From: Campylobacterales bacterium
Lineage (GTDB): Bacteria > Campylobacterota > Campylobacteria > Campylobacterales > Hydrogenimonadaceae
Assembly: GCA_027065515.1 (NCBI GenBank)
Contig: JAMOOM010000171.1
Coordinates: 1-32,954 of the forward strand
Direction: 5' to 3'
DNA: 32,954 nt
A program made the position numbers and the translations under genes. Each line of letters begins with the position of its first letter. The stretch's first letter is position 1. The notes beneath the pieces were generated by a model. The model had not been told where the DNA came from. It did no database searches and worked only from the letters and a program-made list of their open reading frames with translations. Below are positions 2,796-19,344 of this stretch, piece by piece.

Positions 2796-3208
2796 CGCCC
2801 TTTTTCAAAATAGATTTCATTCTTTCCATACCCTTTGATCAAAAGATCGAACCACGCCTCTCTCTTCTTCGGATCGAACGCCTTGAATTGCAACAGCGCA
2901 TACGGGGTCCAATAGTTTGCCACATTTCCATCTGCCGGCTTTGAAAAAAGATCGATCATGAAGCTGTTTTTACGATATTTTGCATAGAGCAACGGTTGGA
3001 AATTTTGCCTGTCATAAGATATATGCATCACCAATCCGCCATTTTTATAAAGAGTCCATCGAAACGCCAAATGGTGATCTCTCCCCTGCGCTTTTATCTC
3101 TACATGTTGCAGTTGATCTTTTTTCAAAACGAACGTGGCTTTATGATCCCACATTTGCGCCGAAGCGAAAAATGGGATCAAAAGAAAAAACCGAAAAACT
3201 CTACTCAT
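2792..3208 (-). CDS. Conserved hypothetical secreted/periplasmic protein
   Basis: 138-aa ORF with an N-terminal signal-peptide-like segment (MSRVFRFFLLIPFFASAQ); overlaps both neighbours by a few bases, consistent with co-translation. Confidence 0.75.
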   Translation of the reverse strand: MSRVFRFFLLIPFFASAQMWDHKATFVLKKDQLQHVEIKAQGRDHHLAFRWTLYKNGGLVMHISYDRQNFQPLLYAKYRKNSFMIDLFSKPADGNVANYWTPYALLQFKAFDPKKREAWFDLLIKGYGKNEIYFEKGR

Positions 3209-3482
3209 TCTGTGTCAGAATATTCGCAGTCAACTCTATATATTTACTGAATTTACACTCATCGAGCACTTCGGTGTCGCTGAAAGTACGCCTTTGAATC
3301 TCGCTCTCCATCGCCTCTTCACCGATCTTCTCTTCCAGAATGATCTCCAAAAGACACATCCGCTCGACCATTTTGTCAAGCTCCAGCTCAACCAGATTTC
3401 TATTGGCATTGTAAACAATATCGAAAAATTTCTTTTTGGGAGAACCGCCCGAAAAGATATCCTCTTCATCTTCAAACAGCAT
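3201..3482 (-). CDS. DUF2018 family protein, HP0242-like
   Basis: LFEDEEDIFSGGSPKKKFFDIVYNANRNLVELELDKMVERMCLLEIILEE...ELTANILTQNE resembles H. pylori HP0242 from memory. Start taken as the internal ATG (MLFEDEED); the track start at 3509 is an alternative. Confidence 0.8.
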   Translation of the reverse strand: MLFEDEEDIFSGGSPKKKFFDIVYNANRNLVELELDKMVERMCLLEIILEEKIGEEAMESEIQRRTFSDTEVLDECKFSKYIELTANILTQNE

Positions 3483-3569
3483 ATAATTACCTTTTCTAAA
3501 ATTGCGCATCCGCGAAACAGGCGCCAGATAACGGCAGTTATTATACCACCCTTTTCTTGTGTAACCGTT

Positions 3570-5525
3570 TTAAAGGTCGCGCAGACTCTTTTGCGCCTCT
3601 TCCAGCTCCCTCAACGGTCTCGGTTCGTCGATATAATACCCCTGTGCGATATCCACTCCCATCTGACACACTTTCTCGTATACAGCTTCATCGCAGACAA
3701 ATTCCGCAACGGTTTTGATATTTAGCCTTTGTGCGAAGTCGATAATCGTCTCGGCGATGATTTCCAGATTTTTATCTTTGTGAACGTTCTTGATCAGCGA
3801 TCCGTCTATCTTTATATAATCGACATCGAGAGATGTAAGATAGGAGAAATTGGAGTATCCTGTGCCGAAATCGTCGATGGCGATCTTGCATCCAAAGTGC
3901 TTCATATCCTCTATAAAAATCGCCACTTCCGGGTAGTTTTCTATATTTTCGCTCTCGAGAAGCTCGAAAATGATACGATTTGCGACATGATGTTTTTCTA
4001 CTCTCTCTTTGATAAACTCGACCGTTTCGGCATTGAGAATATCCTCGACCGAAAGGTTGACCGAGAACGTAAACTCTTTTCTGTTTTCGAAATATATGCA
4101 GCTTTGCTCAACTATATGCCGCGTCATTTTGGGATAATAGTGTGTTTTTTGTGCCAACGAAAGGAAATGAAACGGGGATACGACCGTCCCGTCCTTTTTG
4201 ATCAATCGCATAAGAACCTCGTACCCTTTGACGTGATGATGCCTGATATCGTACAATGGCTGGCCATAGGCTTCGATTCTTCCATCCTCTAGGGCGCTTT
4301 TGATTTCAGATACCCACTGTATATTCTCCTTGTATCTCTTTTTCACCTGCCAATTTTGTGAAAAGAGCATAATGGGAACTCTTTGCTTTCTGGCCTCTTT
4401 CAGCGCCATATCGGCCTGCTCGATCGTCGGCATATATTCTATACTGGCGCCAATGGAGATACGAAGATCGATCCGATTCTCCTCGAAAAGAAAAGAGGTA
4501 TTCTCGATCTCTTCCCTGATCCGCTTCAGCAATTCAAGAGCCGACTTTGAGGTAAACTCCTTTTTGACGATGAAAACAAATTCATCCCCCGATGCACGAT
4601 AGAGCGCATCGAAATTCATCGAAGAGAGTTTCGCCCCCAGCTGTTTGAGTATTTCATCGCCCACATGATGCCCATAAAGATCGTTGATCTCCGTGAAATC
4701 GTCGATATTCGCGATCGCCAATAGGGCGCCATGTATTCTTGGAAGATCTCTCATCATCGCTCTTCTGTTCGGCAGGCCGGTCAACGAATCGCTGTAGAGC
4801 TGATCCCACAGCTTTTTGGTTTTCTGTTCGACTTGAATATGGAGATTTTCGTTCAGATGGGTAAGTTTTCTGGTGTACTCCTCGATCTTTTCTTGCATCT
4901 TTTCGACCGCTTCTTCGATCTGCCTTATCTCCCTATCCGAACTGAGCCTCTTGAACTTTACAGGATTTTTCACACTATAATCCACCAAAGAGTTGGCCAG
5001 TTCTTTAAGAGGATAGAGACGTTTTCTTATTAGATAGACAGTAAGCGCGTAAAAGAGCGCCAGCAGAAGCAAAAAAACCGCGAACATTTTGGTCAGTCGC
5101 AAAAGCATGGCATTGTAGGTATAGCTTACATAATCTACAACGAGTTTTCCAATTTTCGATTTGTCGCCGGGCCGGTAGATATCTGCCGATGTTTCGATCA
5201 CAATGCCATTTTCGGCAGAAACGCTTTTGTGAAGATCGTGGCAGACTCTGCCATTGCAATAGAGCTTGACCGCGACGATCTCTTTTTGTTTCAGAAGCTG
5301 CCTTAGTGCCTCCACCACCCGGTCATCCATACCAAGATAAAGATTTATACCTATTTGCGGGGCGAACATTTCGGCGATCAATTTCGCCTTCTCTTTCTCT
5401 ATATCGTAAAGCACCTGCTTGCTGAAATATTCGAAAAGAAAAAAAGCGACCGCAATGATCACGATACCCATAACGACTACATATCCCGTCAATGTGGCAG
5501 ATAGTGATCTTTGGCGTTTAAACAT
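3570..5525 (-). CDS. Membrane GGDEF-EAL protein with a CHASE8-like periplasmic sensor and HAMP-like linker
   Basis: TM segment, periplasmic region (NLYLGMDDRVVEALRQLLKQKEIVAVKLYCNGRVCH...), second TM, then LTGLPNRRAMM...RASGDEFVFIV (SGDEF) and GYEVLMRL...FSVNLS...ELLES...DDFGTGYSNFSYL...IKIDGSLI...AQGYYIDEP (EAL domain, EVL variant). Confidence 0.93.
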   Translation of the reverse strand: MFKRQRSLSATLTGYVVVMGIVIIAVAFFLFEYFSKQVLYDIEKEKAKLIAEMFAPQIGINLYLGMDDRVVEALRQLLKQKEIVAVKLYCNGRVCHDLHKSVSAENGIVIETSADIYRPGDKSKIGKLVVDYVSYTYNAMLLRLTKMFAVFLLLLALFYALTVYLIRKRLYPLKELANSLVDYSVKNPVKFKRLSSDREIRQIEEAVEKMQEKIEEYTRKLTHLNENLHIQVEQKTKKLWDQLYSDSLTGLPNRRAMMRDLPRIHGALLAIANIDDFTEINDLYGHHVGDEILKQLGAKLSSMNFDALYRASGDEFVFIVKKEFTSKSALELLKRIREEIENTSFLFEENRIDLRISIGASIEYMPTIEQADMALKEARKQRVPIMLFSQNWQVKKRYKENIQWVSEIKSALEDGRIEAYGQPLYDIRHHHVKGYEVLMRLIKKDGTVVSPFHFLSLAQKTHYYPKMTRHIVEQSCIYFENRKEFTFSVNLSVEDILNAETVEFIKERVEKHHVANRIIFELLESENIENYPEVAIFIEDMKHFGCKIAIDDFGTGYSNFSYLTSLDVDYIKIDGSLIKNVHKDKNLEIIAETIIDFAQRLNIKTVAEFVCDEAVYEKVCQMGVDIAQGYYIDEPRPLRELEEAQKSLRDL

Positions 5526-6060
5526 CCATAAACCTGACTATGGTATAAAGTGACTGTCTGAACCTCGGGACCCACTCGAGCGACCTTTTATTCATATAGA
5601 TCACCGTAGCGCGACGGATATCCAGGGCGATAGTGGCTCCAAATGCGAGATCTTCGAAGTCATATACGAATACCGGCACTCTTTTTTTGCGTGCGAGAGA
5701 GACCATTTTTTTTATATTCTCCTCTTTTCCTTTGAGCAGATAATATGCATCGCACTCCTCCTTGCCATCGATATCGTCGAATGTGGCATCTTTGACGAGA
5801 AAAGGTAGATTCGCCAACTCTCCTCCATAATATTCACCTATCTTCTGAATCACTCTTTTTGCAACCTCTCCATCCTCTCTTTCGTGAACCACCATCAAGA
5901 CTACCGGTTTTTTGGCCATCTGGTGACGCTGCACGAAACCATCCTCCAGCAAAAGAATTTTGGGGTAGATGCGGCTCTGCGCTTCGAGCAGTATATCGTT
6001 ATAATTGTACGCCCACAACAGCTGCGCAAAAATAAAAAACGATATTACAAGTCGCATCAA
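5518..6060 (-). CDS. YfiR/DUF4154-like periplasmic protein
   Basis: Signal peptide MMRLVISFFIFAQLLWA. The C-terminal half, CDAYYLLKGKEENIKKMVSLARKKRVPVFVYDFEDLAFGATIALDIRRATVIYMNKRSLEWVPRFRQSLYTIVRFM, follows the YfiR pattern (C-D-hydrophobic core, PVxxV, IN-like strand, final 'Lxx...' helix). Lies between a TonB receptor and a GGDEF-EAL gene. Confidence 0.65.
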   Translation of the reverse strand: MMRLVISFFIFAQLLWAYNYNDILLEAQSRIYPKILLLEDGFVQRHQMAKKPVVLMVVHEREDGEVAKRVIQKIGEYYGGELANLPFLVKDATFDDIDGKEECDAYYLLKGKEENIKKMVSLARKKRVPVFVYDFEDLAFGATIALDIRRATVIYMNKRSLEWVPRFRQSLYTIVRFMDV

Positions 6061-8120
6061 AACCCCTTTAAGAGCGTAATCATGACACGACGGCCCTCTT
6101 GAGGATAGTCGTTCATGTAATTATACGCTACAGATGGATAGCGAACGTCGGCGTCAAACAGATTCTGCATACCGAAACGAACTTTCAGATCATCACCATT
6201 ATGATAGCCAAACGCTATATCGAGTGTCGCGTAGCTATCCAGCTTGGAGCGCGGATCACCCCGCATCCGTTCCTTGGAACCCACATATTTTCCGACCAAT
6301 GCCATATCCAATGCGCCGCTGAGCCGATGCAGATAATACCCTTTGGCCATATGATGCGCGGCATTGGCCAAAGGATCGTCACCATTTTGCTTGCCATATA
6401 CATACGAGTAGTTCATATAGAGCGCATCGTCGAGCCCGATCGGCGTCTTGCACTCCACCTCCATGCCGTATATCTTCGAATCGGATGCGTTACGATATTC
6501 GTGCTCGGCATTGTTGTTATCGATCTGCTTGTCATTACGCAGATAAAAGATATTCACCTGCAAAAAAGAGTCCGTTCCCATTTTATGGATATAAGCGGCT
6601 TCGAACGCATCTACCCTCTCCGGCTCAAGAGCCAGATTTCCGACACGGGCATGGTTGTTTATGGTAAAAAGCTCCTGCCAGGAGGGAGAACGGCTCGATC
6701 GGCTGTAGATCGCTTTATAGATGTTGTATCCATCGGCTTGATACACGAGAGAGAGGCGGGGGTTGTACTGCACTTTCATGTGTGTCACCTTCTCGATATT
6801 CACACCTGCCTGCAGCGACAATTTATCGCTATAGTCGTATCTATCCTGGACAAAGAGGCGCTTGGCTCGCAAGTATGCATCCGGATCGCTAAACGGTGCT
6901 GCGCGAGAATAGTCCACCATCCCTATGCCGTCTCTCCTATCTGTCGTCTTGGTGATAACTTTATAGGTCTTGGTGTAGTCGATGTAGTATCCTGCGCTCA
7001 AAGAGTGGTTGCTCCATCCTCTATAGCTTCCGTATGAAGTCTGATAGAAGCGTCTCAGTTTCGCTTCGTGTTCGCCATAGAAACCATCTTTGTAAACCAC
7101 TCCGGAAGAGGTAGAGAAACCGGCTGGCAAAAGATGGGATTCGCTCTTGAATTGCGAATCTTTCCAGCCTGCTTTTATATGAATCTGCCACTTTTTCATG
7201 GATGGATGATAATCGGCTTCCATATATTTTTGCGGCATCCTCATGCTGTCATCAGGGTCTGGGAGAGCGCCGTTTATGCCATATGCACTTCCTCTTTTAT
7301 CATAGAGATATCCCGCGCGAAATGTCGTATCTTTATACCTAAGCGTCATTTGAAGCATAGAGTTTTTCATCCAGAGTGGAGCGCTACCGCTTCTGGCAAG
7401 CGAAACGTTTCGCGGACCATAAATACCGGTCGCAAGAGCATCGGGACCTGCCGGCAGATACTTGTCGTCTCTTTGATAATAAAACTGTGCATGAAGTGAA
7501 AGATCGTTTTTTTGGTAATTTTTTATAAATCCGCCCATTCTATACTCGTAGGATCCACCCTTTATGACGATACGGTCGTGATCTTCTTCGCTTTCAAAGC
7601 TATTTTGCGCATATGTAAAAACCCTGATCGATCCGGCATAGGCATTGTAGCCATCGCTGACACTCCCCGGTCCTCGCGTCACCTCGATCCTTTTGATCAT
7701 TTCGATCGGCATATCAAGATACATTCCATAACCGTCTATAAATAGATCGTTGACCTCCACACCGTCGATAAACAGCCTGCTCTGCCCATATGCACTGGGG
7801 TTTGATCCGCGGAATATAGCCCGCTTGTTGTCAAGATTGTCAGTGGCCATATCGACACCTGGCACCAGCTCCAGCGCATCTTTTAGATTGGTTACGCCAA
7901 TACGCTCCATTTCAGGCCCCTGGAAAACGGTGACGATATATGGCTGATACGGTTCGTTCATCTTCACTTTTTCGGCCAGATAGGAAATCTTTTGCATATC
8001 ATCCACAATGGAATCGATCGATGCCATCTTGTCGGTTTCGGCCAATAGCGTACTGTTTGGCTCAAATGCGAAAAGTACACTTCCGCCCAAAAACAGAAGA
8101 AGTTTCGATATCTTTTTCAC
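6057..8120 (-). CDS. TonB-dependent outer-membrane receptor
   Basis: Signal peptide; plug domain (VTNLKDALELVPGVDMATDNLDNKRAIFRGSNPS...RLFIDGVEVND...IKRIEVTRGPGSV); beta-barrel with YKAIYSRSSRSPSWQELF and a C-terminal GMQNLFDADVRYPSVAYNYMNDYPQEGRRVMITLLKGF ending in an aromatic residue. Confidence 0.93.
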   Translation of the reverse strand: MKKISKLLLFLGGSVLFAFEPNSTLLAETDKMASIDSIVDDMQKISYLAEKVKMNEPYQPYIVTVFQGPEMERIGVTNLKDALELVPGVDMATDNLDNKRAIFRGSNPSAYGQSRLFIDGVEVNDLFIDGYGMYLDMPIEMIKRIEVTRGPGSVSDGYNAYAGSIRVFTYAQNSFESEEDHDRIVIKGGSYEYRMGGFIKNYQKNDLSLHAQFYYQRDDKYLPAGPDALATGIYGPRNVSLARSGSAPLWMKNSMLQMTLRYKDTTFRAGYLYDKRGSAYGINGALPDPDDSMRMPQKYMEADYHPSMKKWQIHIKAGWKDSQFKSESHLLPAGFSTSSGVVYKDGFYGEHEAKLRRFYQTSYGSYRGWSNHSLSAGYYIDYTKTYKVITKTTDRRDGIGMVDYSRAAPFSDPDAYLRAKRLFVQDRYDYSDKLSLQAGVNIEKVTHMKVQYNPRLSLVYQADGYNIYKAIYSRSSRSPSWQELFTINNHARVGNLALEPERVDAFEAAYIHKMGTDSFLQVNIFYLRNDKQIDNNNAEHEYRNASDSKIYGMEVECKTPIGLDDALYMNYSYVYGKQNGDDPLANAAHHMAKGYYLHRLSGALDMALVGKYVGSKERMRGDPRSKLDSYATLDIAFGYHNGDDLKVRFGMQNLFDADVRYPSVAYNYMNDYPQEGRRVMITLLKGF

Positions 8121-8698
8121 CTATTTTCCAATCCATCAAAGAGATTTTTGTTCGCTTCGATACACTTTTTCGTAGAGAGTAGTACCGGAAAACGCTCTTT
8201 TTTCGCATATACTTTACCATCTCCGATAATTTCATACGGAAAACCGAAACGCCGAAGGAGTAGATAGAATCTTTTTTCGACCGAGCCCAAAGTAAACTCG
8301 ACACCCAAATTAAAAGCATGCATAAAAATATTTTTTTTCATCAACCTGAAAATTTCTCTGCTCTCTTTCATTCCTCTGCAATCGGCTCGTATAAATATAC
8401 GGGAAAGTTCCCCTACATTGTCTTCGTTTAGCCCCATTTTCTTCAAATTGAGATCAAAAGCGTTTTGTGTCGGATACCCTATCGGAGAATGATGAACGAA
8501 GCGGATACTCGCTGCAACTTCCCCACTTTCATCCAATACAGCAAAATGCTCACAACAGTTGTCATATTCATCTTTTTCCAGTCCATCCGGCAAATCCTCT
8601 TTTTTGTAAACACCCAGCTCTTCACAAGCTATGGCATATCTAAAACGATACACTTTCGTCAATAATTCACCATCTTTGGCCGCCAAGAAACTGAACAT
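8117..8698 (-). CDS. LuxI-like / PEP-CTERM-exosortase-associated-type N-acyltransferase
   Basis: KVYRFRYAIACEELG, GLEKDEYDNCCEHFAVLD, VAASIRFV and VGELSRIFI correspond in order to the LuxI-family signature (xRxxxF, GxExDxYD, R, ExSR). RBS-like aaggat precedes ATG at 8698. Confidence 0.72.
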   Translation of the reverse strand: MFSFLAAKDGELLTKVYRFRYAIACEELGVYKKEDLPDGLEKDEYDNCCEHFAVLDESGEVAASIRFVHHSPIGYPTQNAFDLNLKKMGLNEDNVGELSRIFIRADCRGMKESREIFRLMKKNIFMHAFNLGVEFTLGSVEKRFYLLLRRFGFPYEIIGDGKVYAKKERFPVLLSTKKCIEANKNLFDGLENR

Positions 8699-8729
8699 TG
8701 CAAATCCTTAAAATCCCGTATTTTTAAAG

Positions 8730-8747
8730 TATATTACACATAATATA
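8730..8747. promoter_or_regulatory. Perfect inverted repeat TATATTA-caca-TAATATA, candidate operator
   Basis: 7-bp arms with 4-bp spacer, read directly; 32-49 nt upstream of the acyltransferase ATG (8698) in the 62-bp gap to the RND gene. Confidence 0.4.
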
Positions 8748-8760
8748 TATTTTTTATAAA

Positions 8761-11700
8761 TCAGGCCATCGAACCATCGCATTTGAGGCGATACAAAACG
8801 GAAAAGAGCAGCGGCACGAAATAGAGGTTCAAAACGGTAGCCCAGATGAGGCCAAATCCCAGCGTTACCGCCATCGGCTTCAGTATCAGCGCTTGACCGG
8901 AAGCGAAGAAGATAAGCGAAGAGAGCCCCAACACTGTCGTGAGCGACGTAAGAAGAATCGGGCGCAGGCGCAGCCTGGCTCTTTCGATCAGCTCGTCGGA
9001 TGTGCGTGCATGCTTTATGAAATCGAGCATAATCAATCCATCGTTGACTACGACACCGGCCAAACCTACGATACCGATGAGGCTTGGCATGGTCAGATGC
9101 AATCCCATGATCATATGCCCCACCAGTACACCAAAAATCGAAAGAGGAATCGTAGCAAGAGTGACAAGTGGCAACGCCACGGAATCGAACATCCACACGA
9201 GTGCAACGAAAATAAGAAAAATTGCCACTACCGCCGACTGAACGATTTCGCGCTTGACGGTGCGATTCTCTTTCTCTTCTCCTTTTATATCTATTTTCAC
9301 CCCGTTTTTTCGCACTTTTTCAAAAACCGGTGAGAGTCTTCTCATCACCTCCGAAGATGTAATTTTCCGTTTGTTCAATGTGGCATATACAGTCCTGATC
9401 CGCTTTCCGTCACTTTTGAAGATTTTGGCGAAACTTTTTTTACGCTGCATATCTGCGATTTCGCGCAAAAGCACCCATTGGTTCCGATTAGGCACCTGAA
9501 GCTCAAAGTCGAAGAAGCGGGCAAGTTCATCTTTTTTCAGATCCTGAAGACGTATGCGCACCAGACCCTCATCGTTGAACATCTTTGCATATTCGCCTTT
9601 CAGGAAAAAAGGCTGCAGAGCCCTTGTAAGCATACCTTCGGTAAAACCGAGATCCTGGCCATAACGGTTGATCCGTAGTTTCAGCTCGTCTTCGCCGGCT
9701 TTGGCGTCATCGGTAACGTTTGAAACACCCGGCATATCAAAGAGTGCGCGCTCGATCTCTTTTAGTGCTGCAAGCACCCTCTTCTCATCTCCACCGAAAG
9801 ATATTTCCACATCGCTTTTTACGATACCCGCTTGCGGAACGATGACATTCAGCTCTTTGAAAAGCGGCCCGTATGCATCCTTTTTCTCTTTGAGAGGGGC
9901 GATGATCTTTTTGATCTCTTCGGCGATCTGCTGAGCCGAGTGGCGTCTTATCATATCCCGACTATCATATTCCGGACTCAGGTACGGATTTAGATATTTA
10001 TCGAAAAAGTTTTGCGGTACCGGCTCGTGAAGATTTACGAAAATATGGAAGAGATTGTCCGCGTTCTCCCCTACATTGTTGCTGTCGACTTTCAGCCCGA
10101 TAACCGTGGTGACCGAGGAGACATCCTCTTTGGATAGATTTTTCAAAAGCGAAGCTTCAAGCTGCGATACGATCTTTTCGTTGTCTTGAAGATCGTTGTT
10201 GATATCCACTTCTCCATTGACATATATCTGTGTCGTATCGAAATCCGGAAATAGCTGAAATTTACTCTCTTTGGCCAGTATCCACGTCCCTATTGCGATC
10301 AAAAGCACCATCGAAGGCAGCGCGATCGCTTTATGGCGTATCAGCGGTCCAAGTATGGCTTGGTATATGCGGTAGTTTCTATCCCAAAATCGATGAGTGA
10401 ATCCCAGCTCTTTCGTGGGCCTCAATATATCTTTTGCATGAAGCGGAAGAAAATAGAAAGCCTCAAACAGTGAGCTCAAAAGCAAGATCGTGATCATCAC
10501 CGGCAACACTTTGATAAATTCTCCAAGCTTTCCGGTAAGCATCAAAAGTGGCAGGAATGCAAAAACGGTCGTCATCGTCGCAGTCAACACCGCAGGAAAC
10601 ATCTCTACCGATCCTTTGATAGCCGCCTCTTTGGGCGATACCCCCTCCTCGATATAGCGATAGATGTTTTCAGCCACGACAATCGCCTCGTCCACCAGCA
10701 TACCCAAAGCGATCAGCGCCCCAAGAAGCGTTAGCATATTGAGGCTGTAGCCCAGAATTTCGGATGCTATTAGTCCTATCATAAAACTGACCGGTATGCC
10801 TATGGCCACCACGAGAGCGATCCGCGCATTCACGAACAGAAGCATCGAAAGAAAAACGAGCCCCAGACCGAATATGATGTTGGAAACGACGGTGTTGAGA
10901 CGGTTTTTGATCCAGACGGAGGTATCGGTATAGACATCGAATGTAAAGTCGGGGTAACGTTTCTTGTAAGTCTCCAGCATCGAGCGTATCTGCCTCGAAA
11001 GAGCGATAGCGTTGCCCTGTTCCGATTTGCTGACGGAGATGGAGACGTTTTTCGTGCCGTTGAAGTGCGATATCTCCTTTGGATCGCTGAGAGTGAAACT
11101 CACTTTTGCCACATCTTTTAGATAGAAACGCTTACCTTCGGCATGAAGTATCGTATTCTCCAAAGCGGCCTCCGTTTTTTCCCCGTTGATCGTACTGATA
11201 AAAAGATGCGTACCGCGCTGCTTCACCGAGCCGATAGGATAGATCGACGCCAGCTCTCTCACCGCAGCCACCACTGGGTCGTAGTGCAGTCCCAGCGCCT
11301 TGATTTTGGCACTTTCAAGCTCGATATCCAGCTCATCGTCGGCATCGCCATAGATGATTATGTCGCTGAGATCCTTGAAATTGGCAAGATCGCTCTTGAT
11401 TTCATCAGCCACTTCAAGAAGCTCTTTTTTGGGCTTGTTGGCAGCCACGGCGATCAGCACGAGAGGGAAATTGCGCTTGGCTATCCTGGCAACCGGCTCG
11501 TCCATATCCGCAGGCAGGTCGCGCCTGATATTGGCTATCACATCTTTTGCATCACTAAGAGCCATATCCGGATCGTTGCCGGGTTTGATATCGGCGCCTA
11601 TCATGAAATCGCCATTTTTTATCACGGATTCGATCGTACCGATCTCGCTTAGATTTTTGAGTCCGTCTTCGATCGAGTGGACCGCCATCTTGTCGAGCAG

Positions 11701-11877
11701 ATCCGAACTGGCTCCCGCATAGTGCCCGGTGATCGTGATACGGTCGAGATTGCTCGGAGGAAATATCTCTTTTGGTATATTGATATAGGCAAAAACCGAA
11801 AGCAGCATAAGAAATATCAAAAATATATGATTCAGGATCGGCTTTTCGATTGCAAAACGTATGAATTTTTCGACCAT
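8761..11877 (-). CDS. RND-family efflux transporter permease (AcrB-like)
   Basis: 1038 aa; FIRFAIEKPILNHIFLIFLMLLSVFAYINIPKEIFP N-terminus; LLGALIALGMLVDEAIVVAENIYRYIEEG (TM4 region); GIVGLAGVVVNDGLIMLDF (TM10 region). Confidence 0.93.
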   Translation of the reverse strand: MVEKFIRFAIEKPILNHIFLIFLMLLSVFAYINIPKEIFPPSNLDRITITGHYAGASSDLLDKMAVHSIEDGLKNLSEIGTIESVIKNGDFMIGADIKPGNDPDMALSDAKDVIANIRRDLPADMDEPVARIAKRNFPLVLIAVAANKPKKELLEVADEIKSDLANFKDLSDIIIYGDADDELDIELESAKIKALGLHYDPVVAAVRELASIYPIGSVKQRGTHLFISTINGEKTEAALENTILHAEGKRFYLKDVAKVSFTLSDPKEISHFNGTKNVSISVSKSEQGNAIALSRQIRSMLETYKKRYPDFTFDVYTDTSVWIKNRLNTVVSNIIFGLGLVFLSMLLFVNARIALVVAIGIPVSFMIGLIASEILGYSLNMLTLLGALIALGMLVDEAIVVAENIYRYIEEGVSPKEAAIKGSVEMFPAVLTATMTTVFAFLPLLMLTGKLGEFIKVLPVMITILLLSSLFEAFYFLPLHAKDILRPTKELGFTHRFWDRNYRIYQAILGPLIRHKAIALPSMVLLIAIGTWILAKESKFQLFPDFDTTQIYVNGEVDINNDLQDNEKIVSQLEASLLKNLSKEDVSSVTTVIGLKVDSNNVGENADNLFHIFVNLHEPVPQNFFDKYLNPYLSPEYDSRDMIRRHSAQQIAEEIKKIIAPLKEKKDAYGPLFKELNVIVPQAGIVKSDVEISFGGDEKRVLAALKEIERALFDMPGVSNVTDDAKAGEDELKLRINRYGQDLGFTEGMLTRALQPFFLKGEYAKMFNDEGLVRIRLQDLKKDELARFFDFELQVPNRNQWVLLREIADMQRKKSFAKIFKSDGKRIRTVYATLNKRKITSSEVMRRLSPVFEKVRKNGVKIDIKGEEKENRTVKREIVQSAVVAIFLIFVALVWMFDSVALPLVTLATIPLSIFGVLVGHMIMGLHLTMPSLIGIVGLAGVVVNDGLIMLDFIKHARTSDELIERARLRLRPILLTSLTTVLGLSSLIFFASGQALILKPMAVTLGFGLIWATVLNLYFVPLLFSVLYRLKCDGSMA

Positions 11878-15323: not shown

Positions 15324-16796
15324 ATGATTACCTGGATGCAAAAACACAGAAAATATCTTGTCATCACGATCTGGATCAGCACGATCGCATTCGTGGGTGC
15401 AGGATTTGTCGGCTGGGGCACATACCAGTACGGCAGCAAAAGCAAAAACGTCGCCAAAGTGGGTGATGTTCCTGTCACCTATGCCGCTTTCGAAAGCGCT
15501 TATGGCAATCTTTATCAGCAATACAACCAAGCGATGGGTGGCAGGCTCGATGAAGCGACGGCCAAACGCATGGGGCTTAAAAAGAGGGTTCTTCAATCTC
15601 TTGTCTATCAGGCGCTGATAAAGAATTTTGCCAAAGAGCACGGTATCATCGTAAGCGACGAAGAGGTTCAAAAGGAGATCGTTTCCATTCCGGCTTTTCA
15701 AAAAAACGGCCATTTCGACAAATCCACATATCTCGCGACACTTAAAAACATGCGCACAAAACCAAAGATATTCGAGTCGAGCATCAAAGATGAGCTCCTC
15801 ATAAAAAAGACCCTCAGACTCCTCACTCCCGGTGTCGCTCCGCTTGAACTGGAAGCGTTCGGCGCTGCACTCTTCATGGCGGACAAACTTCGTTACAAAG
15901 TCTTTACATCCGATCAGATAAAAGTCACGGTGGACGAGAAAGAGCTCAAGTCGTGGTGGGAAAAACACAAAAGCGACTATATGACACCCAAACGCTACAA
16001 ACTGGCCATTACATGGATTGCTCCAAAAAACGAATCGATCGACGACAAAGAGATAGAAGAGTACTACAAATCGCACCGTACCGAATTTACAGACAAAGAG
16101 GGCAAAATTCTTCCACTCGAAAAGGTTCGCGACCTCGTAGCCAAAAAAGTAGCCCTCAAGCATACGAAGAAAGAGGCGGAGCTCGCCTATATCGCTCTCA
16201 AAAAAGGAAAAGCGTCTCCACAGGAGACGATCGTCGCAGATGCCGGCGACAGTCGCTTCTCTCCCGATATATGGAAAGCTATCGAAAGTGCTGCACCGGG
16301 AACGCTTCTCAAGCCGAAAGTGACAGGTGACAGATATGCAGTGATCCAGGTAGCAGAAATGATTCTTCCAAAGCCCAAAAGCTTCGAAGAAGCCTATAGC
16401 CAGGTCAAAGCCGACTACATATCCAAAAAAAGAGAAGAGCTTCTGCTGGCATTGGCGAAAAAAGCGAGCGACGATCTAAAAGATGCGAAGCTCTCGGACT
16501 ATGTGACAAGAGACGACGCCGACAAACTTCCACCACTTTCAAAAGATGAAGCTACGCGTTTTCTGCAACAGCTCTTCTCGTCAAAAAGCCAAAAAGGGGC
16601 GATACTGATCGGCAACAAAGCTGTCAGTTACGAAGTTGTGGAACAGAAGTTGCTTGATTCCGACAAGCTGACACAGTACAAAACGTTTATAGAGCAAAAT
16701 GCCAAAAAGATCAAATCGGATCTTCTGCAAAGCAGGCTGATCGAGAGATTGCAACAAAAATATCCGATAGAGATCTATATAAAGGAAACCGAGTGA
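15324..16796 (+). CDS. PpiD/SurA-like membrane-anchored periplasmic peptidyl-prolyl isomerase/chaperone
   Basis: N-terminal TM anchor (YLVITIWISTIAFVGAGFVGW), SurA_N-like segment (KVGDVPVTYAAFESAYGNLYQQYNQ...), rotamase-like region; upstream of ftsA as in other Campylobacterota. Confidence 0.85.
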   Translation: MITWMQKHRKYLVITIWISTIAFVGAGFVGWGTYQYGSKSKNVAKVGDVPVTYAAFESAYGNLYQQYNQAMGGRLDEATAKRMGLKKRVLQSLVYQALIKNFAKEHGIIVSDEEVQKEIVSIPAFQKNGHFDKSTYLATLKNMRTKPKIFESSIKDELLIKKTLRLLTPGVAPLELEAFGAALFMADKLRYKVFTSDQIKVTVDEKELKSWWEKHKSDYMTPKRYKLAITWIAPKNESIDDKEIEEYYKSHRTEFTDKEGKILPLEKVRDLVAKKVALKHTKKEAELAYIALKKGKASPQETIVADAGDSRFSPDIWKAIESAAPGTLLKPKVTGDRYAVIQVAEMILPKPKSFEEAYSQVKADYISKKREELLLALAKKASDDLKDAKLSDYVTRDDADKLPPLSKDEATRFLQQLFSSKSQKGAILIGNKAVSYEVVEQKLLDSDKLTQYKTFIEQNAKKIKSDLLQSRLIERLQQKYPIEIYIKETE

Positions 16797-18160
16797 GCAG
16801 ACCCCTCCTTGCGATAGACATCGGATCGAGCAAAATCAGTGTTGTCATCGCTGAACAAAAAGACGACACGATAAGCATTATCGGTTCCGGTGTCGCCAGG
16901 TCACAAGGTGTACGCAAAGGCACCATCACCAATATAGAGCTGACTTCACGCTCGATTCGTCAAGCTCTAAGCGACGCAAAGCGTGTCGCAGGCACCGCTT
17001 CCGCAAAAGCCATCATCTCGATCTCAGGCGCATATACCCGCTCCATAAACAGCTCCGGAATCGTAAATATCCCACAACAAGAGATTGGCATCAAAGAGAT
17101 AAACCGTGTCATGCAGACGGCTCTTTACAATGCCAACATCCCCAACGAATACGAAGTGCTGCATGTGTTGCCCTACAATTTCAAAGTTGACGAGCAGGAG
17201 TTCATCGAAGATCCATTCGGAATGAACGCAAGCAGGCTCGAGGTAGATACTCATATCATCACCACCCAAAAATCAAATCTAAGCAATCTTAAAAAAGCGG
17301 TAAAATCTGCGGGAGTAGATATAGAAAATGTCGTACTCGCTGGCTACGCATCCGCTATCTCCGTCCTCAACAGCGACGAAAAGGAGCTGGGTGTCTGTGT
17401 TATAGATATGGGGGCTTCTACATGTGAAATGGTGATACACTCCGGCAACTCTTTGAGATTCAATACATTTCTGGCAGTCGGATCCAACCATATCACGAAC
17501 GATCTATCGATGGCGCTGCACACCCCGCTCGGCGTGGCCGAAAAGATCAAACTCGAATATGGATCGCTAAAAACGCCTTCGAACGAGTTGATCGAAATCC
17601 CGATCATCGGAGATGAAACACAAAAGCATGAAATCTCTCTCGAGATCGTTTACAATGTAATTCAGGCGCGAGTGCAGGAGACACTGATGATTCTTGCCAA
17701 GGAGCTTGAAAAGAGCAATCTCAAAGAGCAGATCGGCGCCGGAATCGTACTGACAGGAGGCATGACCAAACTGGATGGCATCAGAGAGCTTGCAATGGCA
17801 ATTTTTGACAATATGCCCGTCAGAATAGCCAGACCCAGACAGCTTGAAGGTGATTTTGGACCGCTTAACGATCCGGCGTTCGCCACCGTTCTTGGACTTT
17901 TGGAATATGGGGCCGGAGCATATACCCAGTACGAAATCGATTCAAACAAAAAGATGCTCCACAAAAAAGAACCCATCGCAACCAACAAAGAGGAGCTAAG
18001 CGATATCTCGTTGTCTGCCAAACAAGAGGATCTCTCGGATAAAAAACTCCAAAACGGAGATATCAAACAGCGCCTGGCCCAAGTTGCTACACATGAAGAG
18101 GAAGAGAGCATTGGCCAGAAAATCAAAAAATTCTGGCACTGGATGACACAGATATTTTAA
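16793..18160 (+). CDS. ftsA: Cell division protein FtsA
   Basis: LLAIDIGSSKISVVIAEQ...VCVIDMGASTCEMVIHSG...GAGIVLTGGMTKLDGI; C-terminal amphipathic helix-like tail IGQKIKKFWHWMTQIF. Confidence 0.96.
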   Translation: MSRPLLAIDIGSSKISVVIAEQKDDTISIIGSGVARSQGVRKGTITNIELTSRSIRQALSDAKRVAGTASAKAIISISGAYTRSINSSGIVNIPQQEIGIKEINRVMQTALYNANIPNEYEVLHVLPYNFKVDEQEFIEDPFGMNASRLEVDTHIITTQKSNLSNLKKAVKSAGVDIENVVLAGYASAISVLNSDEKELGVCVIDMGASTCEMVIHSGNSLRFNTFLAVGSNHITNDLSMALHTPLGVAEKIKLEYGSLKTPSNELIEIPIIGDETQKHEISLEIVYNVIQARVQETLMILAKELEKSNLKEQIGAGIVLTGGMTKLDGIRELAMAIFDNMPVRIARPRQLEGDFGPLNDPAFATVLGLLEYGAGAYTQYEIDSNKKMLHKKEPIATNKEELSDISLSAKQEDLSDKKLQNGDIKQRLAQVATHEEEESIGQKIKKFWHWMTQIF

Positions 18161-18186
18161 TACCTATTTCAAGAGAGGAGTACAAA

Positions 18187-19344
18187 GTGAGGAATAAATT
18201 TTCAATCGAAGAGTCCCCAACGATTGCCGGAGCCAAGATCAAGGCAATAGGCGTAGGAGGTGGCGGTGGCAATATGATCAACCATATGATTCACCAGGGA
18301 ATCGATGGTATAGACTTGATTGTCGCCAACACCGATGCGCAAGCACTGGAAACATCCAAAGCACCACACAAGATCCAGCTGGGGGAGAAGCTCACCAAAG
18401 GTCTTGGAGCCGGTATGAAGCCAGAGATCGGAGAAGAGTCTGCACTGGAAAGCTATGATCACATCAAAGAGGTTCTCCAGGGCGCGGATATTGTTTTCGT
18501 CTCATCCGGTCTTGGCGGTGGCACCGGTACGGGAGCGGCCCCCATTATAGCTCAAGCCGCCAAAGAAGCGGGTGCATTGACGGTTTCGGTAGTGACGAAA
18601 CCTTTCCGCTTCGAAGGCCGCAAACGAATGAAACTTGCAGAAGCCGGACTTGAAGCGCTCAAAAAAGAGAGCGACTCAATAATCGTCATTCCAAACGAGA
18701 AACTTTTAAGCATTGTCGATAAGACATTGGGTATCAAAGAGAGCTTCAAGATGGTTGACAATATTCTCGCAAGAGCTGTCAGCGGTATCAGCAACGTCAT
18801 CCTCTCGCGCGGAGAGCACGATATAAATCTCGACTTTGCGGATGTCAACACCGTCATGAGTCACAGAGGTTTGGCACTGATGGGAGTAGGCGAAGCTACG
18901 GGCCCAAGTGCGGCTTACGAAGCGATAAAGAATGCGATCGAGTCTCCGCTTCTTGACAATATGGATATCAAGGGCGCCATGGGTGTGTTGGTTCATTTCC
19001 ATATACATCCCGACTATCCAATCCTTGAAATCAGCGAAGCGATGGGGATCGTAGAGGATAATGCCCACGAAGAGGCGCATGTGATTTTCGGCACCACGAC
19101 CGACACGAGCCTCTCCCTCGATGAAGTCAAGATCACGATCGTTGCGACAGGCTTTGAAAGTGCAGAAGCCGAAGAGGAAAAGACCGAAGTCAAAGATGAT
19201 AAAAAGCGACAGATTACACTAATGCAGCCTGAAAACAGCGAAAACGCCATTCCTGCAAGCACGCCGCGTGTCAAGGTAGTAGGCGGTTACGACAACGAAG
19301 AGATTCTAGATATTCCTACATGGATGCGCAACCAGATGGATTGA
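18187..19344 (+). CDS. ftsZ: Cell division protein FtsZ
   Basis: IKAIGVGGGGGNMINHMI...GLGGGTGTGAAPIIA (tubulin signature)...C-terminal DIPTWMRNQMD; GTG start with upstream agaggag. Confidence 0.98.
   Translation: MRNKFSIEESPTIAGAKIKAIGVGGGGGNMINHMIHQGIDGIDLIVANTDAQALETSKAPHKIQLGEKLTKGLGAGMKPEIGEESALESYDHIKEVLQGADIVFVSSGLGGGTGTGAAPIIAQAAKEAGALTVSVVTKPFRFEGRKRMKLAEAGLEALKKESDSIIVIPNEKLLSIVDKTLGIKESFKMVDNILARAVSGISNVILSRGEHDINLDFADVNTVMSHRGLALMGVGEATGPSAAYEAIKNAIESPLLDNMDIKGAMGVLVHFHIHPDYPILEISEAMGIVEDNAHEEAHVIFGTTTDTSLSLDEVKITIVATGFESAEAEEEKTEVKDDKKRQITLMQPENSENAIPASTPRVKVVGGYDNEEILDIPTWMRNQMD

Follow-up and report, generated by a model that had tools for sequence, protein, structure and literature searches.

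In the ScrABC operon of Vibrio parahaemolyticus, which serves the S-signal, a synthase gene is joined by genes for a periplasmic binding protein and a GGDEF-EAL protein of the inner membrane, and the bound signal turns on phosphodiesterase activity (PMC11315295). The YfiBNR (TpbB) system of Pseudomonas aeruginosa contains YfiR, which represses an inner-membrane cyclase and whose structure has been likened to a single lobe of ABC-type substrate-binding proteins (PMC4655355). Here, we describe a four-gene cassette in a 32,954-nt stretch of DNA (the window) from a Campylobacterales bacterium of the Hydrogenimonadaceae (GenBank assembly GCA_027065515.1, contig JAMOOM010000171.1, positions 1 to 32,954), which encodes an N-acyl synthase, a TonB-dependent outer-membrane receptor (TBDR), a YfiR-like periplasmic protein, and an inner-membrane GGDEF-EAL sensor (Table 1). 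It is somewhat probable, in our judgement, that the cassette constitutes a self-contained, co-transcribed circuit leading from an acyl signal to cyclic di-GMP (c-di-GMP), the messenger that governs biofilm formation and motility in bacteria.

ScrABC is, on the best reading, the closest working analogue of the cassette, and the circuit would work like it while being built from unrelated parts. In gene architecture, both place a synthase alongside a periplasmic protein and a GGDEF-EAL protein. However, ScrA is an aminotransferase, whereas the cassette synthase is a LuxI/N-acyl amino acid synthase (NAS) enzyme of the GNAT type; ScrABC has no TBDR, and the periplasmic component of the cassette has a YfiR fold. 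The likeness to ScrABC is one of layout. The original prediction had drawn its parallel with YfiBNR alone, and this holds as far as the periplasmic YfiR-fold protein beside an inner-membrane c-di-GMP enzyme is concerned, but the sensor is LapD-like and ScrABC is the closer system. Unlike YfiBNR, the cassette has a TBDR at the outer-membrane place, and a Pfam scan of the block and its neighbours found no YfiB OmpA-like lipoprotein; its output protein also carries an EAL domain, the cysteine pairs are mostly absent, and a synthase is included. A search of the open-access literature returned no description of this gene combination, nor of YfiR joined with TBDRs and c-di-GMP; DUF4154, the family of YfiR, is mentioned in a single paper there.

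Gene junctions and predicted functions of the four products

The four genes lie head to tail on the minus strand across 8698-3570, all at the positions originally predicted for the four open reading frames, and each overlaps the next end-to-start. Inspection of the junction letters bore out the predicted overlaps between the synthase and TBDR genes (GTGA, 8117-8120) and between the YfiR-like and GGDEF-EAL genes (8 nt, ATGTTTAA, 5518-5525). The predicted overlap at 6057-6060 was not borne out in that form: because the TBDR/YfiR-like junction reads TTTTGATGCG, translation of the YfiR-like protein likely starts at the ATG at 6057, with a 1-nt TGATG overlap, and not at the TTG at 6060. The four genes are presumably co-transcribed; a scan of the 62-nt gap (8699..8760) that separates them from the RND pump gene found no sigma-70-like site on the minus strand.

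The synthase matches PF13444 (3.6e-10), PF00765 (7.5e-9, above cut-off), and PF21926 (FeeM; 1.3e-6, just above cut-off), together with an OlsB-type family under the cut-off. Residues R20, D43, D46, E97, and R100 are invariant in 45/45 aligned cassette synthases, and E41 is conserved in 44/45; we take these six residues to be the LuxI-superfamily catalytic set (Arg, Glu-x-Asp-x-x-Asp, Glu-x-x-Arg). This set, the PF00765 match, and the top PDB sequence matches, which are N-acyl-homoserine lactone (AHL) synthases, liken the protein to LuxI-type enzymes. Among NCBIfam families, TIGR03694 (PEP-CTERM/exosortase-associated NAS) scores best with each of the 11 tested cassette synthases; long-chain N-acyl amides are the reported products of this family (PMC9762135). 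Unlike that family, the window synthase scores below the cut-off (61.9 bits against 111.95), is shorter (193 residues against a 241-position model), and resides in a genome without an exosortase. Exosortase is likewise absent from 18 of the 20 cassette genomes, and an exosortase-linked role was rejected for most members. Unlike the setting of LuxI-type enzymes, all 20 of these genomes also lack the LuxR autoinducer-binding domain (PF03472), so that a conventional LuxR receptor for the synthase product is lacking, and LuxR-type perception was rejected for them. Since TIGR03694 is the best family, exosortase is mostly absent, and the LuxR domain is missing, the product is predicted to be an N-acyl amide or N-acyl amino acid with no less likelihood than an AHL. 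The host of the window is a Hydrogenimonas: the closest named relative of the window synthase is from Hydrogenimonas sp. WV45_bin5 (72% identity). Plasmid records contain two distant AHL-synthase-like matches but no close copy of the synthase. Longer FeeM/NAS-type genes (251-253 aa) occur in other Campylobacterota behind genes of ~230 and ~615 aa (L138-L142; at L140, only the ~230-aa gene was seen ahead), which is possibly a classical exosortase-type setting.

The TBDR consists of a barrel (PF00593, 1.1e-30) and a plug (PF07715, 4.7e-16) behind a signal peptide-like N-terminus. In contrast to FecA-type TonB transducers, it has no N-terminal STN signalling domain in the Pfam scan, and FecA-type transcriptional signalling was rejected on this ground. 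The receptor resembles siderophore, haem, and B12 receptors below the cut-off, a likeness consistent with a different function for the cassette, in which the synthase would supply a siderophore-like carrier bearing an acyl group, the receptor would take the carrier back once loaded, and the YfiR-like and GGDEF-EAL proteins would report its import. The conserved block, however, comprises four genes only, with no non-ribosomal peptide synthetase, metal-ligand chemistry, or inner-membrane transporter, and such carrier uptake appears improbable.

The YfiR-like protein of the window has no significant Pfam match, and a profile of the cassette homologues found no match among PDB sequences, so that a fold comparison was required. 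Half of the homologues (15/30) match DUF4154 (PF13689; best 2.3e-9), including a paralogue elsewhere in the window's own genome. An AlphaFold2 model built from 21 cassette homologues (mean predicted local distance difference test (pLDDT) 93.2; predicted template-modelling score (pTM) 0.87) was compared with the PDB by Foldseek, which returned P. aeruginosa YfiR (4zhu, 4yn9, and 4yna; E 5e-5 to 8e-4), with a target-length TM-score of 0.71-0.72 for 4zhu and 4yn9, and single-domain substrate-binding proteins from Rhodothermus. As judged from this model, the protein has the YfiR fold, and the structural similarity to YfiR on which the original prediction had staked its claim for this protein (then counted as 180 aa) has been found in crystal structures. 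A weak PF04392 match in the homologue set fits the reported likeness of YfiR to a single lobe of such binding proteins of the ABC type.

The shared fold, and the repression of an inner-membrane cyclase by Pseudomonas YfiR, would also suit a YfiBNR-type stress system, in which the YfiR-like protein represses the sensor in answer to redox or envelope stress, with the receptor and synthase as passengers. We consider this very improbable: 42 of the 65 YfiR-like members have no cysteine past residue 20 and none has four, the block has no YfiB/OmpA-like gene, and the pairing of TBDR with YfiR-like genes is conserved.

The sensor contains EAL (1.9e-61) and GGDEF (4.9e-22) domains, and HAMP was detected in 12/20 homologues. 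The model of its N-terminal part (pLDDT 82, pTM 0.55) comprises, in order, a transmembrane (TM) helix, a helical/four-strand periplasmic domain, a second TM helix, and a coiled continuation, with the membrane parts assigned from sequence. The periplasmic domain looks LapD-like in this model, its top domain-sized PDB match being the periplasmic output domain of CdgS9, a LapD orthologue (4u64, E 9.8e-4), and the TM-periplasm-TM-HAMP-GGDEF-EAL layout is also shared with LapD and CdgS9. In contrast to these proteins, the sensor retains its EAL residues, and the cassette has no LapG-like gene. All EAL catalytic positions are kept in 47/47 sensors, while the first glycine of GGDEF is mostly serine (SGDEF in the window and in most of the 47; GGDEF in some). 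Because the EAL catalytic residues are intact, the sensor is predicted to be an active c-di-GMP phosphodiesterase and not a pure c-di-GMP receptor; it is possibly bifunctional, and its cyclase half may or may not act. A degenerate LapD-like receptor is disfavoured accordingly by the 47 intact sensors, and the output of the cassette, first proposed as a c-di-GMP change, is better predicted as phosphodiesterase activity.

Conservation, boundaries, and co-inheritance of the block

Conservation was assessed in sets of 250 and 398 genomes of the class and in one scan of GTDB species genomes that used a single nine-residue pattern. The order synthase–TBDR–YfiR–GGDEF/EAL recurs in dozens of genomes from several Campylobacterota families, and because of this recurrence the arrangement is not due to chance. 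The hosts are deep-sea-vent and sediment relatives of Campylobacter, and the lineages named in the GTDB scan include Hydrogenimonas, Nitratiruptor, Sulfurimonas, Arcobacteraceae, and metagenome-assembled genomes of Helicobacteraceae. A strong synthase match (E <1e-32) is present in 31/398 genomes. Downstream sequence extends for at least 4 kb at 46 of the 53 distinct synthase loci; 43 of these 46 contain all three partners and three contain none, so the neighbourhood, which the original prediction needed to find outside this strain, is conserved well beyond it. In one sub-lineage (L045, L131, L133, L135, and L136), the sensor gene is flipped and divergent. Cassette-type synthases at L086/L128 and L129 have no TBDR, YfiR, or sensor gene close by, and a related synthase gene in Hydrogenimonas G074 (L134, 8138-10520) is divergent from a dCache-GGDEF gene, an additional connection, of another kind, from an acyl synthase to c-di-GMP.

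The flanks of the block vary: rsmH and RND genes in Hydrogenimonas, and elsewhere an HpcH/HpaI-type gene with a cytochrome-like gene (the latter a weak assignment) or unrelated genes. In a sister Hydrogenimonas genome (G125, locus L176), the gene order of the window is kept (glutamyl-tRNA reductase, polyprenyl synthase, a 143-aa gene, DUF2018, RND, a 93-aa gene, RsmH, and aminotransferase) minus exactly the four cassette genes, and the block boundaries are therefore sharp. The RND pump was rejected as a core exporter, as it flanks the block in Hydrogenimonas only and remains where the block is absent.

Pairwise distances among the four proteins correlate at 0.88-0.96 across 23 genomes, and still at 0.77-0.90 once RsmH is regressed out, with the permutation p at its floor of 0.0005 for sequences that are not independent; the co-inheritance of the four genes thus withstands control with a housekeeping gene. 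Common descent alone could preserve gene order with no functional coupling, and every relative found is indeed from the Campylobacterota. This explanation is disfavoured and scarcely credible, as the flanks change between families while the block stays whole, exactly four genes are absent from the sister genome, and the correlations persist as partial correlations.

A branch with 100/100 support divides the YfiR tree: 44 synthase-linked rows lie on one side together with three synthase-free rows, and 16 synthase-free rows lie on the other. One of these three, L034, carries the remains of a decayed synthase gene shortly before the receptor gene (upstream of 6306), and L137 retains only a 70-aa synthase fragment (8374-8586); in both cases the remnant immediately precedes an intact TBDR-YfiR-sensor block, as though signal production had been lost there and reception retained. 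The simplest reading is that the synthase joined the module by one acquisition, with a few later losses.

The proposed circuit, its synthase-free relatives, and alternatives

In the proposed circuit, the synthase would make an N-acylated small molecule that exits the cell. The TBDR would bind this molecule at the outer membrane and either import it or signal its occupancy via the plug. The YfiR-like protein, with its fold resembling a single-lobe substrate-binding protein, may then bind the ligand or the receptor and dock onto the LapD-like periplasmic domain of the sensor, whereupon the GGDEF-EAL module in the cytoplasm, with an EAL half predicted to be active, would be switched, changing c-di-GMP and hence attachment or motility. 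We infer, in particular, that the receptor recognises the synthase product as its ligand and relays to the YfiR-like protein; a diffusible acyl product, the identity of the ligand, the protein contacts, the direction of the switch, and control of the phosphodiesterase are likewise putative elements of the scheme. The produce/sense/respond module of the original prediction is thus partly supported, by the conserved unit, the YfiR fold, and co-inheritance beyond the RsmH control.

Pairs of TBDR and YfiR-like genes also occur without a synthase. They adjoin genes for GGDEF-only proteins (L046), PAS-GGDEF-EAL proteins (L051, L058, and L060), or histidine kinases (L036, L049, L050, L055, and L056; the kinase gene is divergent in L036), and at L048 and L053 a YfiR-like gene stands beside a kinase or GGDEF gene with no receptor adjoining. 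The N-terminal sensor region is recognisably similar in most synthase-free outputs, including the histidine kinases, and the kinase loci (those above and L048) probably represent the same relay with a two-component output. Because these pairs are found with GGDEF, GGDEF-EAL, or histidine-kinase outputs, the comparison suggests a general relay that runs from the receptor through YfiR to the inner membrane, has an exchangeable output, and apparently acquired the synthase once; varied outputs behind the same pairing fit a relay from receptor to inner membrane. The window's own genome contains a second cassette of this kind, a synthase-free TBDR-YfiR-PAS-GGDEF-EAL arrangement (L051, contig C103, 440-5420).

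Several observations weigh against the acyl-signal circuit. Synthase-free TBDR-YfiR-GGDEF modules are common, so exogenous ligands are possible, and the cell itself need not be the source of the ligand in this cassette; the synthases at L086, L129, and L134 sit outside cassettes; and the cysteine pairs of Pseudomonas YfiR are missing from most YfiR-like members. When alignment lengths are equalised by subsampling, moreover, the synthase tracks the receptor, YfiR, and sensor about equally, and a special synthase-receptor coevolution past shared inheritance is not claimed.

The main rival is environmental sensing with a separate acyl output, in which the TBDR-YfiR-GGDEF/EAL module senses an exogenous ligand (a metal chelate, a nutrient, or a molecule from another species). 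The product of the synthase would then be a surface-active N-acyl compound or lipid that the same change of lifestyle requires, and not the ligand of the receptor. The frequent synthase-free kin of the three-gene module and the two genomes in which an intact module accompanies a decayed synthase agree with this rival, as does the chemistry of the FeeM/NAS and OlsB-type families, whose products are N-acyl amino acids and ornithine lipids. It is nevertheless unlikely, in our estimation, given that the synthase and receptor genes overlap, are co-inherited, and trace to one apparent acquisition.

If the acyl-signal circuit is correct, vent and sediment Campylobacterota gain a signalling system without LuxR, and the TBDR is given the job of perceiving a self-signal, wired to c-di-GMP. 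Tentatively, and with a little more doubt than for the circuit itself, the cassette may represent LuxR-independent cell-cell signalling in Campylobacterota, consisting of an acylated autoinducer, a dedicated TBDR, a YfiR-fold relay, and an inner-membrane c-di-GMP enzyme, and thus a new class of quorum sensing built by adding a synthase to the general TBDR-YfiR relay. The loci also point to a wider, largely unnamed relay of TBDR, YfiR-fold protein, and inner-membrane sensor with interchangeable outputs (GGDEF, GGDEF-EAL, and histidine kinase), which makes it testable how the occupancy of an outer-membrane receptor could reach the cell interior by a route other than FecA-type sigma-factor signalling.

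Features of the locus and its surroundings

Table 1. Positions of the cassette genes and adjoining features in the window.
Feature	Position	Strand	Remarks
RND (HAE-type) efflux pump, upstream flank, outside core	8761..11877	-	Beside the cassette in Hydrogenimonas only
Gap between RND pump gene and cassette	8699..8760	-	62 nt, AT-rich; AAGGA ribosome-binding-site-like element at 8709-8705
N-acyl synthase, LuxI/NAS (GNAT) superfamily, 193 aa	8117..8698	-	PF13444, PF00765, PF21926
TonB-dependent outer-membrane receptor (TBDR), 687 aa	6057..8120	-	PF00593, PF07715
YfiR/DUF4154-like periplasmic protein, 179 aa, signal peptide-like N-terminus	5518..6057	-	AlphaFold2 model, Foldseek, PF13689 in homologues
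Inner-membrane GGDEF-EAL sensor, 651 aa	3570..5525	-	TM, periplasmic LapD-like domain, TM, HAMP-like region, GGDEF (SGDEF), EAL
DUF2018 gene, downstream flank, first past cassette	3201..3509	-	

Near the cassette, the plus strand of the window carries a gene for a SurA-like chaperone followed by ftsA and ftsZ (15324-19344), an ordinary cell-division cluster.

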